NCBI GenBank assembly: GCA_027449865.1
Contig: DAIDKV010000009.1
Span: forward strand, 1-64,000
DNA: 64,000 bases
DNA from: Planctomycetales bacterium
GTDB taxonomy: Bacteria; Planctomycetota; Planctomycetia; Isosphaerales; Isosphaeraceae
Direction: 5' to 3'
A program made the position numbers and the translations under genes. Numbering within the stretch: position 1 is the first letter of the stretch; every line of letters starts with the position of its first letter. The notes beneath the pieces are model-generated. The model had not been told where the DNA came from, searched no databases, and worked only from the letters and a program-made list of their open reading frames with translations. This document shows positions 15,133 to 24,154 of this stretch, piece by piece.

Positions 15133-15978
15133 ATGCCGCGCACGGTTTTGGTGGTCGACGATGAGCGCGACGCCAATGACATCCTGGCTCATCTGGTGCG
15201 GGCTCGTGGGTTTGAACCGATCCAGGTCCACTCGGGCCAGGAGGCGCTGACCGAGGTTTCCCGCCGCCGCCCGGATGTGATCCTGCTCGACCTGTCGCTT
15301 CCCGACATCAACGGATTCGAGGTCTGCGATCGCCTCAAGCGCAATCGCGAGACGAATCTGATTCCGGTGGTGATGGTGACGGCGCATCACGACGCAAAGG
15401 AACGCGCTGCCGGAGTTCGTGTTGGGGCCAACGGCTATCTGATCAAGCCGTTCACCCCCGAGCAGCTCCACGCCGCCCTCGACGAGGCCATCGCCTGGCA
15501 CGACGAGCACCAGGGCCGGGGAACCACCGGCGAGATCAACTTTGACGTCCGGAGCGAATTAACGTATCTGGCGCAGGTCAGCGACATGCTTGCCGACCTG
15601 TTCGCTCACACCCCGCTGACCGAGCGGCACATCAAGGATCTGAAACAGGCGATCATGGAGATGGGCGGCAACGCCATCGAGTGGGGCCACCGCAAGAACG
15701 CGGAACTTGTCCTGCGGATCACCTACCGGATCGACCCCAACGCCGTCACCCTGATCATCCAGGACCAGGGACCCGGCTTCGATCCGGGGAATATCCCCCA
15801 CGCCGCCTCCGAGGAAGACCCGATCCGCCACCTCGAACTACGCAACGAACTGGGAATTCGCGAGGGCGGATTCGGAATCATGCTCGCCCGAGGGCTCGTG
15901 GACAAATTCTGGCACAACGAGCGCGGGAATCAGGTCACGATGGTGAAATACTACGGCGAAGCTCCGGCCGAGTCGTAA
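15133..15978 (+). CDS. receiver domain fused to an RsbW-like ATPase (anti-sigma kinase type)
   Basis: A 281-residue cytoplasmic signalling protein. Residues 1-118 form a receiver domain: acidic pair DD at 9-10, phospho-acceptor Asp53 (VILLDLSLPDING), Thr in VVMVTAH and Lys105 (GYLIKPF). Residues 140-275 form a GHKL ATPase of the anti-sigma serine-kinase type: N-box MEMGGNAIEWGH, G1 DQGPGF and G2 EGGFGIMLARGL. No histidine-phosphotransfer helix is present, so it is not a histidine kinase. Fusing phosphorylation input to a partner-switching-type output suggests control of an anti-anti-sigma or anti-sigma pair that is not visible nearby. It is transcribed away from the ExbD operon and probably monocistronic, with a terminator downstream. 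Confidence 0.88.
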   Translation: MPRTVLVVDDERDANDILAHLVRARGFEPIQVHSGQEALTEVSRRRPDVILLDLSLPDINGFEVCDRLKRNRETNLIPVVMVTAHHDAKERAAGVRVGANGYLIKPFTPEQLHAALDEAIAWHDEHQGRGTTGEINFDVRSELTYLAQVSDMLADLFAHTPLTERHIKDLKQAIMEMGGNAIEWGHRKNAELVLRITYRIDPNAVTLIIQDQGPGFDPGNIPHAASEEDPIRHLELRNELGIREGGFGIMLARGLVDKFWHNERGNQVTMVKYYGEAPAES

Positions 15979-17364: not shown

Positions 17365-18357
17365 TTATGGCTTGTGGGCATCGGCTTGACCATGCGTTTC
17401 CGATTCCATCGGAGTTTTTTCCAGGGGCGAACCGCTCGGGATGATCCAGCAAGAATCGTGCGCCGACATTCCAATTCGGGGATAGTAGTCGCGAGCCTTT
17501 GGGGCGGCGAGGAGGATCAGGGTCGTTTGCGTGCCGGCCGCCTCATGGGTGCGTCGGATCAACTCACGGCCGATCCCCTTGCGCTGGAATGCCTCGTCGA
17601 CCGCGAGGTCCGACAGATAAGTGCAGTAACAGAAATCGGTGATCGCCCGCGAGATTCCGACGAGGAGGCCGTCGGCCCGGGCCGTGACGATCAGGTCGGC
17701 GTGGCGGAGCATCGAGGCGATCCGCGCCGGGTCGTTGACCGGCCGGCGCTCGGCGAGCGTCGATCGGCGCAGGACGTCGATGAACGCCTCGGCGTCCAGC
17801 TCCGGATAGGTTTCGATCGCGTAGAGGACCTCGATCGGTTCGGGCTCGTCGGGCGGCGGGGAGATCGGACGCCCGGAGCGCTCGAGCAGGGCCCTCAACG
17901 TCTTCTTGGCAGATGTCGATGCGTCGGAGGGGCCCCGGCCGATCCCCGGTTCGAGGGCGTCGCGATCGAGCGGGTCGCCGAAGGTCTGCTGATAGCCGGG
18001 GAGGGCCCGGAGGTGGCCCAGGAGCGCGGCGAGGGCGGCGTCGGTTGGATGGCCTTCCTTCACCCGCATCGGCAGGCGGACGACGTCGGGGTTCTCCGGG
18101 TGGACCTCGGGCCTCGCGGCGAGGACGAGCGGGCTCTCTTCCCCGGTCCTCCATCGGCCCAGCCATCCGGCGAGCCCGTCGCCGAACCGTCGGTCGAGCG
18201 CCCGGAGGATCGGGTCGATCGGCCGCGCGTCGGGTTTGCGGGCGATCTCGAAGAGCGGATCCGACTCCACGAACTGGAGGGTGATGGTCCGCCGGTCGTG
18301 ATCGGTGATCACGTTGAAATCGCAATGCTTGAAGACGACGGTATGGCGTTCTTGCAT
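17365..18357 (-). CDS. uncharacterised domain fused to a GNAT acetyltransferase
   Basis: A 330-residue cytoplasmic protein. Residues 1-165 (starting [20 protein letters not shown]) match nothing I recognise. Residues 185-310 form a GNAT N-acetyltransferase: [20 protein letters not shown], the acetyl-CoA strand and loop [20 protein letters not shown] (an R/Q-x-x-G-x-G/A-type loop) and [17 protein letters not shown]. This GNAT subtype is normally a stand-alone protein of about 140 residues. The substrate is unknown. Its start at 18357 is one of two in-frame choices (18393 is the other). It is followed by the Gly-rich secreted protein gene and preceded by the sigma-protease fusion, all on the same strand. 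Confidence 0.75.
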
Positions 18358-18420
18358 GGTTTCGCACCCGGCGCGACGCGTGAGCCCCGCCATTGAGTTT
18401 GAAGCAAGGCCCGGGCGTCG

Positions 18421-21400
18421 TCAATCGGCCGTCGCGGGTGGTTTCGCGGCCTCCGGAGACTTCAGCCATCGGAGAGCGGCCTCGGCGACCGTGTCGCGGC
18501 CCCGGGCCAGGTCGGGCGCGGTGCAACGGACGGAAACATCCGGCTCCAGCCCCCGGCGCTCGATCGGGCGGTCCAGGAAGCCGGTATACGCCTTCACCGG
18601 GACCACGACCTTGTAGAGGCCGTTTGTCAGCGTGTACTCCTCCTTGCGGGCCGAGGCGCCCGCCGTGGTCGAGCCGAAGAGGCGGGCCCGCCTCCTCGCG
18701 ACGAACCACGACGCCCACCCCTCGCCGGCGCTGATGCAGCGCTCGTCGATCAGCAACGCGATCGGTCCCCGGTAGAGCGGCCGATGGGCCTTCCCGTCGG
18801 CGGGAGCGAGATCGAAGTTCCGGAAGGCGGTCGCGGTGTCGAACCCGCCGCCGCTGTTCCCGCGGACGTCGAGGATCAGCCCTCGGATCTCTCCCAGGGC
18901 GTTGAGGGCCTGGTCGAGATCGGTTTTGAGCCCCTCTCGAATCCGACGGACGAGGATGTAGCCGATCCCATCATCGAGCCGGACCCACTGCACGTCGGCG
19001 CCGCCGTCCTCGATCCCCTGTCGCGGGACCGGAAGGCGAGGGATGTACCAGACCCGGGCCTCGGCCTTCAGGGCGACGCCCATCGTCCGGCCGTCGACGG
19101 TCTCGACCTCGAGCGCGAGCTTGGCGTTTCGTTCCCCTTGCCGATGGAAGAACCGGGCGGCGTCGTAGCGGAGGTATCGCTCGCTGGAATAGCCGGTGTA
19201 CTTCCTTCGATGGCTCAACCAGCGGTCCATCGCCTCGGCCGCGGGGACGCCGTTGACCGAGAGGACCGTCATCCCATTGCGGAGGCCGGCCTTCCAGGCG
19301 GATGTCCCCGGGGTGACCGCATAGAGGACCGGCCGGCCCCGGTCGTCGATCAGCGAGGCGATCCAGGGGTCCCATTGAAAGGGATCGGGCGGGGCCGGCG
19401 GGGTCGCGGTCCCGTCCGTCACGGCGGCGTGACTGTCTTCCAGGCGGGCGACCAGCTCTTCGACCAGCAGGCCGAATTCCTCCTCCGTGCGGACGGCCTC
19501 GATGCGCGGGAGCAGCTCGCGCCCGACTTTCGGCCAGTCGATTCCCTTGATCGCGAAGCTCGGATAGACCTTGCCCAGGTGGTCGTACAGGTCGCGGAAC
19601 GATTTTGCGTAGCCCTTGCGGTCGTCGGGCGAGGCCGGGGCCGCGCCGGGGGGCGTCCGGCCGGTGATCGTCTTGTAGACTGCCAGGGCGGCCCGGGATC
19701 GCGCCGGGTCGGGCCCGCGCGCGATCTCATCGAGGATCTTCGCCGCCGCGTCCCGGTCGTCCTGGAGGCCCCAGGCGATCCGATTGAGGAAATCGGCATC
19801 GGCCGGCCCGTCATGGCTCTCCTCGACGGCGACCTCGACCAGTCGGCGGATCGTGGCCTCCCGTCGGGTCGGCGGCAAGGGGGTGAGCCCGGACTCGATC
19901 GCCGTGTGGCGGATCTCTCGATCGCGATCCCGCGAGAGGTCGAGCAGGATGTCGGCCGCGACCCCGTTCCAGGGACGGCCCTCGTCCCATCCGGAGAACC
20001 GGGCGAGGAACTCGATCGTCCTCTCGCGGACGAAAGGGCTTTCGTCGCCCGCGGCGGCCCGGAACGCCGGGGCGAACGACTCGTCCATCAGCAGGTCCAG
20101 TCGCTCGCGGCCGGCGCGTTCCATCGCGTCGATTCGCTCGCGAGATGTCCCGGTCCGGAGGGCCTTCTCGATCCGTGGGAGAAGATATCCGGACTTCGCG
20201 CGGGCTCGCTCGCGCGCCCAGGCGAGATTGGCCTCGTGTCGGCCCGGGTCGTGGTCCAGGAACTTCGCCACCACGGCGGCGCGGGCGCGGATCATCTTGT
20301 CGTCGGAATCGAGATAGGGCCGCAGGAAGGCTTTCGCCTGCGCCGGGTCCTTCCGGACGGCGAGGCTGACCCATTCCCAGTCCATCGAGTTCTCGACGTG
20401 CATACACCAGTCGACCATCGCATGAACAATCGCCGGAGTCTTCGGCTCGACCCGCATCAGGCCGAAGTAGATCATGGGCGACTCGACGAAATGGACGAGC
20501 GGCCCACGGTGGTCGCTCGCGTGGTAGAGGATCTCGATCGCCCGGGGATCCTGGCGCGAGGCGCCCCAGACGAATCGTTGCCCCAGCCATCGAATGATCG
20601 GCTCCCGGTTCGCGGTCGTCCTTCGGAGCCCCTGCCGGACGACCCGGGCGGCCTCGGTGGCCGAGAGGGCCTCGGCCTTCGCCGGGACATCGGGGCTGCC
20701 CTCCGGGTCCTGGCCGAAGATTGCATCGAGCTGGCGACCCCCTTCAGGGTCATCGGGGAAGAAGCGATCGAAGTCGGGGGGCTCGTAGCGATCGGTCCGA
20801 CGCCAGGCGAGATCGGCCGGCCTCGACGCGGGGGGCGCGGGCTTCTCGGCGGGTTTTTCGGGGCCCGTGTCGCCGGGGGCCTGGAACCAGAGCGTCGCAC
20901 CGATCGCGAGCCCGACGGCGAGCGTCATGGCGAGTCCTCCGAGGGAGACGAAAGGGGCCGTCGGGGCCATCGCGAGGGCCGCTGCCCGCTCGACGGTGGA
21001 ACGGGCAAGCCCCGCCGGGAGGGCGTCGCGGATCGGCCCGAAGACCGCCATCTCCGGCGCGAGCCCCCGGCGGGCGAGCCGGTCGCGGAGCCGGTCGCGG
21101 CCCCGAGCGAGCCGGCTCTTGACCGTCCCGACCGGGCATCGGAGCCGACGAGCGGCCTCCTCGTGCGTCTTCCCTTCCAGGTCGCAGAGGACGATCGCGG
21201 CCCGATGGCGCTCGGGGAGCCGGTCGACCTCCTCGTGGACGATCGCGGCGAGCTCCGGGTCGGGCCTTGCGGGGCCCGAGCGATCGGGGATCGGGGCCCC
21301 CTGCTCCGCCTTCCGTCGCCGATCGGCCGTCCGACGGGCCCGGATCGCGGCGTGACGGGCGACGCGGTGCAGCCAGGGCGCGATCGAGTCGCCGATCCAG

Positions 21401-21654
21401 AGCGAGCTCCCGCGGCGGGCCAGGGCCAGGAAGACGGCCTGGAAGGCGTCGAGGGCGGCGTGCTCGTCGACCAGGACGGCCCGGCAGGTCCGCAGGACCA
21501 TCGGACCGTGGCGCTCGACCAGGACCGCGAAAGCGAACTCGGCGGCCTCGCCGTCGCGGCGGCTAAACCGTTCGAGCAGCTCGCCGTCGGTCAGGCCGAC
21601 GGCGCTCCCCGATCGGAGCAGGGTCGCCAGGCTCGGATCGTGGTCGGCTCGCAC
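18421..21654 (-). CDS. ECF sigma factor fused through one membrane helix to a repeat region and S41-type protease
   Basis: A 1077-residue single chain. Residues 30-105 are sigma region 2 (FAFAVLVERHGPMVLRTCRA, LDAFQAVFLALARRG). Residues 135-195 are region 4 (LPERHRAAIVLCDLEGKTHE, EAARRLRCPVGTVKSRLARG). A single transmembrane helix lies at 235-257 (FVSLGGLAMTLAVGLAIGAT). About 330-660 is helical and HEAT-like. About 685-745 resembles the helical domain before tricorn/CTP-type cores, 775-830 is PDZ-like (WKAGLRNGMTVLSVNGVPAA) and 890-1045 is an S41 peptidase with IRGLILDVRGNSGG and nucleophile Ser975 in ERCISAGEGW. The GTG start has AGGAGG and AAAGG upstream. The predicted topology is sigma domain inside, protease outside. 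No separate anti-sigma gene is adjacent. Confidence 0.88.
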   Translation of the reverse strand: MRADHDPSLATLLRSGSAVGLTDGELLERFSRRDGEAAEFAFAVLVERHGPMVLRTCRAVLVDEHAALDAFQAVFLALARRGSSLWIGDSIAPWLHRVARHAAIRARRTADRRRKAEQGAPIPDRSGPARPDPELAAIVHEEVDRLPERHRAAIVLCDLEGKTHEEAARRLRCPVGTVKSRLARGRDRLRDRLARRGLAPEMAVFGPIRDALPAGLARSTVERAAALAMAPTAPFVSLGGLAMTLAVGLAIGATLWFQAPGDTGPEKPAEKPAPPASRPADLAWRRTDRYEPPDFDRFFPDDPEGGRQLDAIFGQDPEGSPDVPAKAEALSATEAARVVRQGLRRTTANREPIIRWLGQRFVWGASRQDPRAIEILYHASDHRGPLVHFVESPMIYFGLMRVEPKTPAIVHAMVDWCMHVENSMDWEWVSLAVRKDPAQAKAFLRPYLDSDDKMIRARAAVVAKFLDHDPGRHEANLAWARERARAKSGYLLPRIEKALRTGTSRERIDAMERAGRERLDLLMDESFAPAFRAAAGDESPFVRERTIEFLARFSGWDEGRPWNGVAADILLDLSRDRDREIRHTAIESGLTPLPPTRREATIRRLVEVAVEESHDGPADADFLNRIAWGLQDDRDAAAKILDEIARGPDPARSRAALAVYKTITGRTPPGAAPASPDDRKGYAKSFRDLYDHLGKVYPSFAIKGIDWPKVGRELLPRIEAVRTEEEFGLLVEELVARLEDSHAAVTDGTATPPAPPDPFQWDPWIASLIDDRGRPVLYAVTPGTSAWKAGLRNGMTVLSVNGVPAAEAMDRWLSHRRKYTGYSSERYLRYDAARFFHRQGERNAKLALEVETVDGRTMGVALKAEARVWYIPRLPVPRQGIEDGGADVQWVRLDDGIGYILVRRIREGLKTDLDQALNALGEIRGLILDVRGNSGGGFDTATAFRNFDLAPADGKAHRPLYRGPIALLIDERCISAGEGWASWFVARRRARLFGSTTAGASARKEEYTLTNGLYKVVVPVKAYTGFLDRPIERRGLEPDVSVRCTAPDLARGRDTVAEAALRWLKSPEAAKPPATAD

Positions 21655-21727
21655 GGGGCCTTTCCTCCTCTCGCCTCATCCCCCAGAATCAAGGCGCGTC
21701 GGGGCCCGGCCGTTCCCTCTTTTCCCT

Positions 21728-22852: not shown

Positions 22853-24154
22853 TCAGGAACTGCGAGAGACCCGCGCCGTGACCTCGGCTCGACTGGGTGT
22901 CTGGACGGCCCTTCGACGGTAGGTCGCCGGCGAGACTCCCAGCCGGGCCCGGAAGACGGCGCCAAGGTACTCTTGCCGCCCAAATCCGCACCGCGTCGCC
23001 ACCGAGGCGATCGGCAGGTCGGTCCCCGCGAGCAGCTCCTGGGCCCGGTCGAGCCGGACCCGAACGATCTCGTCGTGGACCGTTCGGCCGAGCAGGAGGC
23101 GGAACCGGCGCTGGAGGGTGCTCCGAGAGACCGCCAGCTCTCGGCAGACGTCCTCGACGGCGAGCCCCTGACAGGCCCGGTCGCGGATCAGGCGGATGGC
23201 CTCGGTGACCTCGCGATCCTCCAGAGCCAGGACGTCGCTGGATCGCCGGGAGATCAGCCCGGCGGGCGGCGTGAGGACCGAGAGGCCCGATCCTCTGGGG
23301 ACCTCGCCCGCCCAGATCCGCCCGAGCAGGGCCGCGGCCTCGTAGCCGACCCGCTGATGATCGGGGACGACGCTGGAGAGGGGCGGGTCGGAGATCTCGC
23401 AGATGGGTTCGTCGTTGTCGACGCCAAGGACCGCGACCTCGTCGGGGACCCGGACGCCGACCCGCCGGCAAGCTTCCAGGATTTTCTGTCCGCCGGGGTC
23501 GTTCGCGGCCATCACGGCGCAGGGTCGCGGGAGCGACTGGACCCAGGCGGCGAGGCGGTCCTGATCGTCCTCCCAGTTTTCCCGGCCGCCGTTTTCGGCG
23601 TGATAGACGAGGCATTCGCCGCCCGATTCGGAGACAGCCTGTTGGAAGGCCTCCTGGCGCTCGTTGGACCAGTTGAGGCTGTGGTGACCGCAGAATCCGA
23701 ACCAGCGGAAGCCGCGTTCCAGGTAGTGGCCGGCCGCCAGTTTCGCGATCGCCGCGTTGTCGACGTGGACCAGCGGAAGCTCCGGACGCCGGACGACCCC
23801 CAGGACGTCCACCGCCGGGATTCCCGAGGCCACCACCGCCTCGGCGATCTGAGCGTTTTGCACCCGGGCGATGATTCCGTCGCCATCCCATTCGTTGAGC
23901 CACCGGGGGACCGACTCCTCGAGGCTCCTCGGCTCGTGGTAGATCGACCAGGGCCCACATTCCCGGGTGTAGCGCGCGATTCCGAGCAGGATATCGCGGC
24001 CCGAGGCCAGCGAGGTTTCAATCACCAGCGCCACCCTTGGCGTGCCACGTCCGAGATGCGATCTCCGGCGAACCACCCGAATTCCCCCGTCGGACACTGA
24101 CCGAATTCCTACAAACTTTGACCGAGAATCGGCTACGTCGCGATTCTCTGGCAT
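22853..24154 (-). CDS. XylR-type AraC-family transcriptional regulator
   Basis: A 433-residue DNA-binding regulator. Residues 38-300 form a LacI/PBP-type sugar-sensor domain (RVALVIETSLASGRDILLGI; AVMAANDPGGQKILEACRRV; VLGVDNDEPICEISDPPLSS, the last being characteristic of XylR). Residues 315-415 form two AraC helix-turn-helices (CRELAVSRSTLQRRFRLLLG; SVATRCGFGRQEYLGAVFRA). Family members respond to xylose or other sugars, and planctomycetes have many copies. The start is uncertain: ATG 24154 lacks a spaced ribosome binding site, while GTG 24076 has GGGGGA upstream. No sugar gene is adjacent, and the targets are unknown. Confidence 0.9.
   Translation of the reverse strand: MPENRDVADSRSKFVGIRSVSDGGIRVVRRRSHLGRGTPRVALVIETSLASGRDILLGIARYTRECGPWSIYHEPRSLEESVPRWLNEWDGDGIIARVQNAQIAEAVVASGIPAVDVLGVVRRPELPLVHVDNAAIAKLAAGHYLERGFRWFGFCGHHSLNWSNERQEAFQQAVSESGGECLVYHAENGGRENWEDDQDRLAAWVQSLPRPCAVMAANDPGGQKILEACRRVGVRVPDEVAVLGVDNDEPICEISDPPLSSVVPDHQRVGYEAAALLGRIWAGEVPRGSGLSVLTPPAGLISRRSSDVLALEDREVTEAIRLIRDRACQGLAVEDVCRELAVSRSTLQRRFRLLLGRTVHDEIVRVRLDRAQELLAGTDLPIASVATRCGFGRQEYLGAVFRARLGVSPATYRRRAVQTPSRAEVTARVSRSS

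Follow-up and report, generated by a model that had tools for sequence, protein, structure and literature searches.

What kind of protein results when a sigma factor runs on, in one reading frame, through a membrane helix and into a protease, and how could such a sigma factor be set free to act? The gene that raises this question occupies positions 18421 to 21654 of the window (the whole 64,000-nucleotide stretch of DNA that was analysed) on the minus strand. Its 1077 amino acids comprise, in order, a sigma factor, a membrane helix, HEAT-like and PDZ-like parts and, last, an S41 peptidase, and we refer to it below as the sigma-S41 gene.

The reading frame and its neighbours

The gene reads from 21654 down to 18421 without an internal stop, and it starts at a GTG behind a good ribosome site, AGGAGG (AGGAGGAAAGGCCCC-GTG). 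Its third-position GC stays between 0.84 and 0.92 per 100-codon block and crosses the junction without a break; because codon-position GC is steady along the gene, nothing points to a change of frame or a foreign join. The join is placed after the helix, as it is in the paralogues, and neither a signal peptide nor a ribosome site of the extension's own is evident. The first-pass annotation had taken the frame to be one continuous chain rather than two genes, and the open frame, the steady codon use and the position of the join agree with it. Two genes fused through a sequencing or assembly error would fit a fusion that is seen in one genome only, a draft of 278 contigs, at a site that is empty in the sister species G001. 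However, the features just listed all speak against such an artefact, which we consider very improbable. An in-frame joining error is likewise unlikely because the sigma part recurs in 28 other chains of the genome, nearly all of them with a long extension, and because the alignment of the extension with secreted proteins sets in at residue 258, immediately behind the helix.

The same-strand neighbours of the gene are an S66 LD-carboxypeptidase gene upstream and a GNAT gene downstream. An operon logic built on these neighbours was considered and rejected: in G001 the sigma-S41 gene is missing from between S66 and GNAT, and we therefore claim no functional link with either. The GNAT gene (17365-18393) carries about 145 extra N-terminal residues that are unmatched in G001. 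Upstream of the S66 gene, at 22853-24154, lies a gene for a XylR-type regulator (a periplasmic-binding-like domain plus an AraC helix-turn-helix), and at 15133-15978 a response-regulator receiver is joined to a HATPase_c_2 (anti-sigma-kinase-like) domain.

The sigma part and the membrane helix

To which group of sigma factors does the N-terminal part belong? Pfam recognises sigma-70 region 2 at residues 45-113 (21316-21522, minus strand; E 1.4e-10) and region 4 (r4_2) at residues 139-189 (21088-21240, minus strand; E 3.7e-15), region 3 is absent, as expected of an ECF (group 4) protein, and the TIGR02937 score is 69.8 bits against a cut-off of 42.9. An ECF sigma factor with both DNA-contact regions, as first annotated, is thus confirmed. 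That planctomycete ECF proteins can bear C-terminal extensions had also been noted, and the literature describes such extensions in ECF52/53 and ECF57 (PMC8999054). ECF57 proteins, with a representative from Singulisphaera acidiphila, have long C-terminal extensions and a conserved pair of Cys residues, one in sigma 2 and one in sigma 4, which has been proposed to link both sigma domains and so to imply a conformational switch (PMC8999054). In our alignment, Cys57 is present in 28 of 29 rows and Cys157 in 29 of 29; these match the ECF57 pair as a feature, for which the review (PMC8999054) gives no exact positions. Because the Cys pair and the long extensions fit ECF57 as reviewed (PMC8999054), an ECF57-like assignment, made from these features, is the likeliest. 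The protein resembles ECF57 members such as WP_015250107.1 of Singulisphaera acidiphila in its family, Isosphaeraceae, in its long C-terminal extension and in its Cys pair, whereas the extensions described for ECF57 are rich in WD40 repeats and that of the sigma-S41 protein is a HEAT-like solenoid plus an S41 peptidase. Pfam finds no WD40-like repeats in it, although they are found in the paralogue L092; since the WD40-rich extension, a matter of prevalence and not an absolute criterion, is missing, we write "ECF57-like" and not "ECF57". No anti-sigma domain was recognised in the chain, and Pfam, searched up to E 1, gave no FecR-type anti-sigma outer domain.

Hydropathy finds one membrane-type segment only, residues 235-257 (20884-20952, minus strand), in keeping with the single transmembrane helix originally annotated: its Kyte-Doolittle value is 1.94 over 19 residues, and the rest of the chain nowhere attains 1.5. 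A similar segment follows the sigma part in 70 of 78 family rows, with more Lys and Arg on its N-terminal side, some of the eight other rows being second partial matches. In the sigma-S41 protein, the juxtamembrane linker that many paralogues share is reduced in length. The predicted topology places the sigma factor in the cytoplasm and the S41 part outside the cytoplasmic membrane; that arrangement, also the one first suggested, is consistent with the homology of the outer part to proteins that bear signal peptides.

The outer part and its source

AlphaFold models residues 255-1077 with a mean pLDDT of 75, the protease part lying mostly between 80 and 97. Ahead of the protease are some 330-370 residues of paired helices, predicted with moderate confidence to form an alpha-solenoid. 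We assign residues ~295-664 (19663-20772, minus strand) to this HEAT-like solenoid, which matches HEAT_2 weakly and is partly common to the secreted proteins L080 and L082. The helical repeats of the first-pass annotation are therefore upheld, but their length is nearer 370 residues than the roughly 300 it gave. Next come a Tricorn_C1-type helical domain at residues 682-736 (19447-19611, minus strand; Pfam, E 6.7e-6), a DSH motif with Ser741 and the predicted catalytic His742 (19429-19434, minus strand; invariant in 18 of 18), and a PDZ-like part matched at residues 778-805 (19240-19323, minus strand). Pfam leaves the PDZ-like domain of the initial description as a weak match only (PDZ_6, E 1.1e-3, below the curated cut-off), whereas the sigma-70 regions and the S41 domain are clear.

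The Peptidase_S41 domain spans residues 897-1042 (18529-18966, minus strand) and is identified by Pfam (PF03572, E 4.9e-17, 62.4 bits against a cut-off of 24), by alignment and by fold; within it lie Ser975 (codon 18730-18732, minus strand) and Glu1032 (codon 18559-18561, minus strand). Ser975 is the Ser of SAGE, as had been recognised. In a profile of 18 relatives, DSH (S741-H742), SAGE (S975) and IERRGLEPD (E1032) are all kept, His742 and Ser975 being invariant and Glu1032 nearly so. Which kind of S41 enzyme is this? In tricorn and CPAF, the catalytic set is Ser, His and Glu. A Ser-Lys dyad of the CtpA/Prc type, with Lys about 25 residues after Ser, was considered and finds no support in the alignment: when the profile is aligned to solved structures, the Lys of CtpA's TFGKG falls in a TAGAS stretch that has no Lys there. 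Because of this, we assign the peptidase, from its sequence, to the Ser-His-Glu kind (tricorn/CPAF), with His in the C1-type domain, Ser, and Glu before the PD motif; the active site is predicted to be intact, with all putative catalytic residues kept. In fold comparison, the predicted S41 domain is closest to 4ghn (Z 31.4), to CPAF (Z 23) and to S41 enzymes of Bacteroides; tricorn scores Z 14. The tricorn core, CPAF and the Bacteroides S41 proteins (4ghn, 8vcb) share the S41 fold and the His-Ser-Glu set, but they are free enzymes with low sequence identity to the sigma-S41 protein.

Where does the outer part come from? Peptidase identity to secreted proteins is ~45-60% overall, and the relatives, mostly at 54-60%, are found in records that bear the labels Phycisphaerae, Pirellulales, Sedimentisphaerales and Verrucomicrobia. 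Where the N-terminus of a relative can be read, it mostly opens with a signal-peptide-like segment followed by varied accessory parts, and in no case is a sigma factor present. The start of the outer part is also common to L080 (Sedimentisphaerales) and L082 (Neorhodopirellula pilleata), which have the same outer part, 45-49% peptidase identity and an FFPD-EGG motif at its start; unlike the sigma-S41 protein, they begin with a signal peptide and lack a sigma factor, and their solenoid is alignable in part only. Similarity to L082 starts immediately past the helix, at residue 258, and is our best evidence both for export of residues 258-1077 and for a genuine join. Because residues 258 onward match secreted signal-peptide proteins of other Planctomycetota, the sigma-plus-helix unit appears by alignment to occupy the place of the signal peptide. 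In other lineages, the S41 unit is joined to many N-terminal parts (L069, L070, L074, L075, L081), judged by eye to be carboxypeptidase-regulatory, beta-helix or LamG-like. Since its partners differ so much, the S41 unit itself appears to move between contexts.

Occurrence of the fusion and its sister fusions

A survey for the same architecture, proposed with the first-pass annotation, returned this gene alone among 45 genomes of the family and 392 sampled from the phylum. No second fusion was found among the loci examined, including 15 long S41 frames, and no other open reading frame examined has both domains, which bears out the original impression that an S41-type protease is unfamiliar as an ECF extension. 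An ECF sigma factor with an S41 extension was likewise not found in the literature surveyed, classification supplements aside, or in the genomes searched. The source genome has no separate S41 of the same family. In the sister species G001, at ~86-87% DNA identity to the source genome, blastn shows the segment 17838-21727 to be missing; the flanks at 17837 and 21728 adjoin across ~112 nt there. This empty site may reflect a gain in the source genome or a loss in G001, and the fusion is probably young. Because the fusion is a singleton with an empty sister site, selection on the sigma-S41 gene itself cannot be measured.

The sigma part, by contrast with this singleton, recurs widely. The source genome (8.48 Mb) encodes ~29 chains of a sigma-helix-X plan, namely the sigma-S41 protein and ~28 others that repeat its residues 1-250 and, with few exceptions, carry long extensions. 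Pfam analysis of 27 paralogues recognised two WD40 propellers in one and, in others, OEP (TolC-type), HlyD, AhpC/redoxin, CarboxypepD_reg arrays, M16 and the Wza-like polysaccharide-export domains Poly_export/SLBB; the remaining paralogues have no Pfam match beyond the sigma factor. By these matches, X is mostly an exported domain. In L094, L093, L105, L096 and L111 of the source genome, the sigma-helix is joined to HlyD, OEP (TolC-type), M16 peptidase and redoxin. Most of the sigma-Poly_export chain finds a match in ~12 genomes at 43-89% identity, and the sigma-HlyD fusion recurs in five genomes including the source genome; both are conserved at full length across genera. In close species pairs, dN/dS of the sister fusions is 0.10-0.15 for the sigma part against 0.34-0.41 for the extension. 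Both ends are therefore kept, and the sigma part of the conserved sister fusions is under strong purifying selection. On contig C58 of the source genome (L123:4299-7747), a sigma-helix-Poly_export gene is followed directly by a separate Poly_export gene, and by coordinates this pair recurs in three further genomes (G002, G003 and G004). Since a separate Poly_export gene adjoins it in these genomes as well, the fused copy may be a sensor.

A promoter-like site ahead of the family

Upstream of the family, GGAAC-N16-18-CWTT occurs in 14 of 83 cases against 0.8 expected from dinucleotide shuffles, and a matrix, with its own members scored leave-one-out, puts 23 of 75 upstream regions below p 0.01, with 0.75 expected. 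The family motif, GGAAC-N17-xCWTT, lies mostly ~80-90 nt ahead of the start. It stands upstream of the sigma-fusion genes L010, L012, L013, L016-L019, L025, L026, L092 and others. Classical ECF -10 elements (CGTC, TCTA) are not enriched upstream of the family. Across the whole genome there are 17 strict matches (GGAAC-N16-18-CWTTA) against 39 for a reversed control pattern; two of the 17 lie just upstream of the family members L091 and L092, which would rarely happen by chance.

The sigma-S41 gene (row L128) has a site of its own within the 73 nt that separate it from the S66 gene, found with a matrix built from its relatives' upstream regions. This ECF-type promoter-like site, GGAAC-N17-CCTTGATTCT (21685-21716, minus strand; in full GAGGGAAC-N17-CCTTGATTCT), has its -35 element ~62 nt before the GTG, deviates from the consensus, and scores p=0.0017 against 3000 random stretches. 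Because many sigma fusions, the sigma-S41 gene included, stand behind such a site, the motif supports autoregulation of part of the family and is suggestive of it for the sigma-S41 gene.

Discussion

How might the tethered sigma factor be switched? We propose, with a probability of about 0.5, that the sigma-S41 protein is a one-piece transmembrane sigma factor of the ECF57-like type whose outer domain is a captured envelope protease, that it is released by proteolysis as in IutY, and that it drives its own gene. The sigma factor would be held in the cytoplasm by the single helix, the sigma-helix unit standing in place of a secreted protein's signal peptide, and the HEAT-like solenoid and the Ser-His-Glu S41 peptidase, drawn from a secreted family, would lie outside the cytoplasmic membrane. 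There, the enzyme or the solenoid would meet an envelope substrate; upon contact, the outer part would be lost, the helix would be cut within the membrane, and the sigma factor, freed as in IutY, would drive its own gene from the GGAAC-type promoter. Weighing against this proposal are the occurrence of the exact fusion as a singleton with an empty site in the sister species, the lack of a recognised anti-sigma domain that could keep the sigma factor silent, the shortened juxtamembrane linker and the departure of this gene's promoter-like site from the consensus.

IutY of Pseudomonas putida joins a sigma domain to a periplasmic domain through one membrane segment, all in one chain, and is freed by Prc, an S41-type protease, and RseP (PMC5411451). 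The first-pass annotation is supported in its one-chain architecture of tethered sigma factor and outer domain, but what it called the reverse of the usual plan has a precedent in IutY (PMC5411451). IutY (ECF243) likewise combines a cytoplasmic ECF sigma factor, one membrane segment and an outer domain, but its outer part, an anti-sigma domain, receives its input from a TonB-dependent receptor and is cut by other proteins, the proteases Prc and RseP, whereas the outer part of the sigma-S41 protein is itself an S41 peptidase. Similarly, SCO4117 of Streptomyces coelicolor (ECF52) is a one-chain sigma factor with membrane helices and an outer domain, but it has zinc-finger anti-sigma and carbohydrate-binding parts and no protease described. 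One-chain tethered sigma factors are thus already known, and it is the S41 extension that appears to be new. Because IutY, built on the same one-chain plan, is freed by Prc and RseP, the sigma factor here is probably freed by proteolytic release too. That the S41 domain is the first cutter, freeing its own sigma factor, is speculation, attractive because Prc is also an S41 protease, though the catalytic kinds differ. No cleavage site or substrate of the sigma-S41 protein can be read from its sequence, and one genome only contains the fusion.

Other readings keep the single chain. The sigma factor could be active while tethered, in the manner of ToxR or CadC, with nothing cut and the outer protease signalling through a change of shape or partner; in its favour, no cleavage site is recognisable, and the conserved Cys pair has been proposed as a conformational switch for ECF57 (PMC8999054). 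We nevertheless think this unlikely, as IutY, the experimentally tested one-chain sigma factor of the same topology, is activated by cutting (PMC5411451), and a sigma factor that had to reach its promoters from the membrane would have a limited regulon. Somewhat less likely still is an outer part that is an enzyme-derived sensor, no longer cutting, which recognises a peptide of the envelope and passes the signal on via the solenoid. The sigma-Poly_export fusion, whose position next to a separate Poly_export gene would suit a sensor copy, offers a parallel, but the predicted catalytic residues of the sigma-S41 protein are all kept, and the source genome lacks a separate S41 of the same family. 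Finally, the sigma factor might be a mere leader on what is mainly an anchored envelope protease, with little regulatory role. Secreted relatives work without a sigma factor, the S41 part is intact by sequence, and the fusion is unique and probably young, all of which would suit this reading; the good scores for sigma regions 2 and 4, the lower dN/dS in the sigma part than in the extension of the conserved sister fusions, and the presence of the promoter-like site make it improbable, and we continue to prefer proteolytic release of a tethered sigma factor.

Beyond this gene, we put at even odds the broader proposal that, in Isosphaeraceae, sigma-plus-helix has repeatedly replaced the signal peptides of exported proteins (peptidases, Wza-like, HlyD, OEP/TolC-type and redoxins), giving one-component, membrane-tethered sigma signalling of which the protease fusion would be a recent product. 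ECF sigma factors are usually read as a sigma factor plus a separate membrane anti-sigma factor, whereas in this one lineage complete signalling proteins that span the membrane appear to be built by attaching a sigma-helix unit to envelope proteins of many kinds; the sigma-S41 gene is such a fusion, present in one of two sister species and absent from the other. How the tethered sigma factor is switched on could be tested directly through the promoter-like motif of the family and through the conserved sigma-Poly_export fusion. If the proposal is true, it would describe a general system in which the transcription factor is part of the envelope protein itself, and the wider pattern, in which sigma factors are fused with Wza-like, HlyD and OEP proteins, may be a larger point than the S41 fusion.
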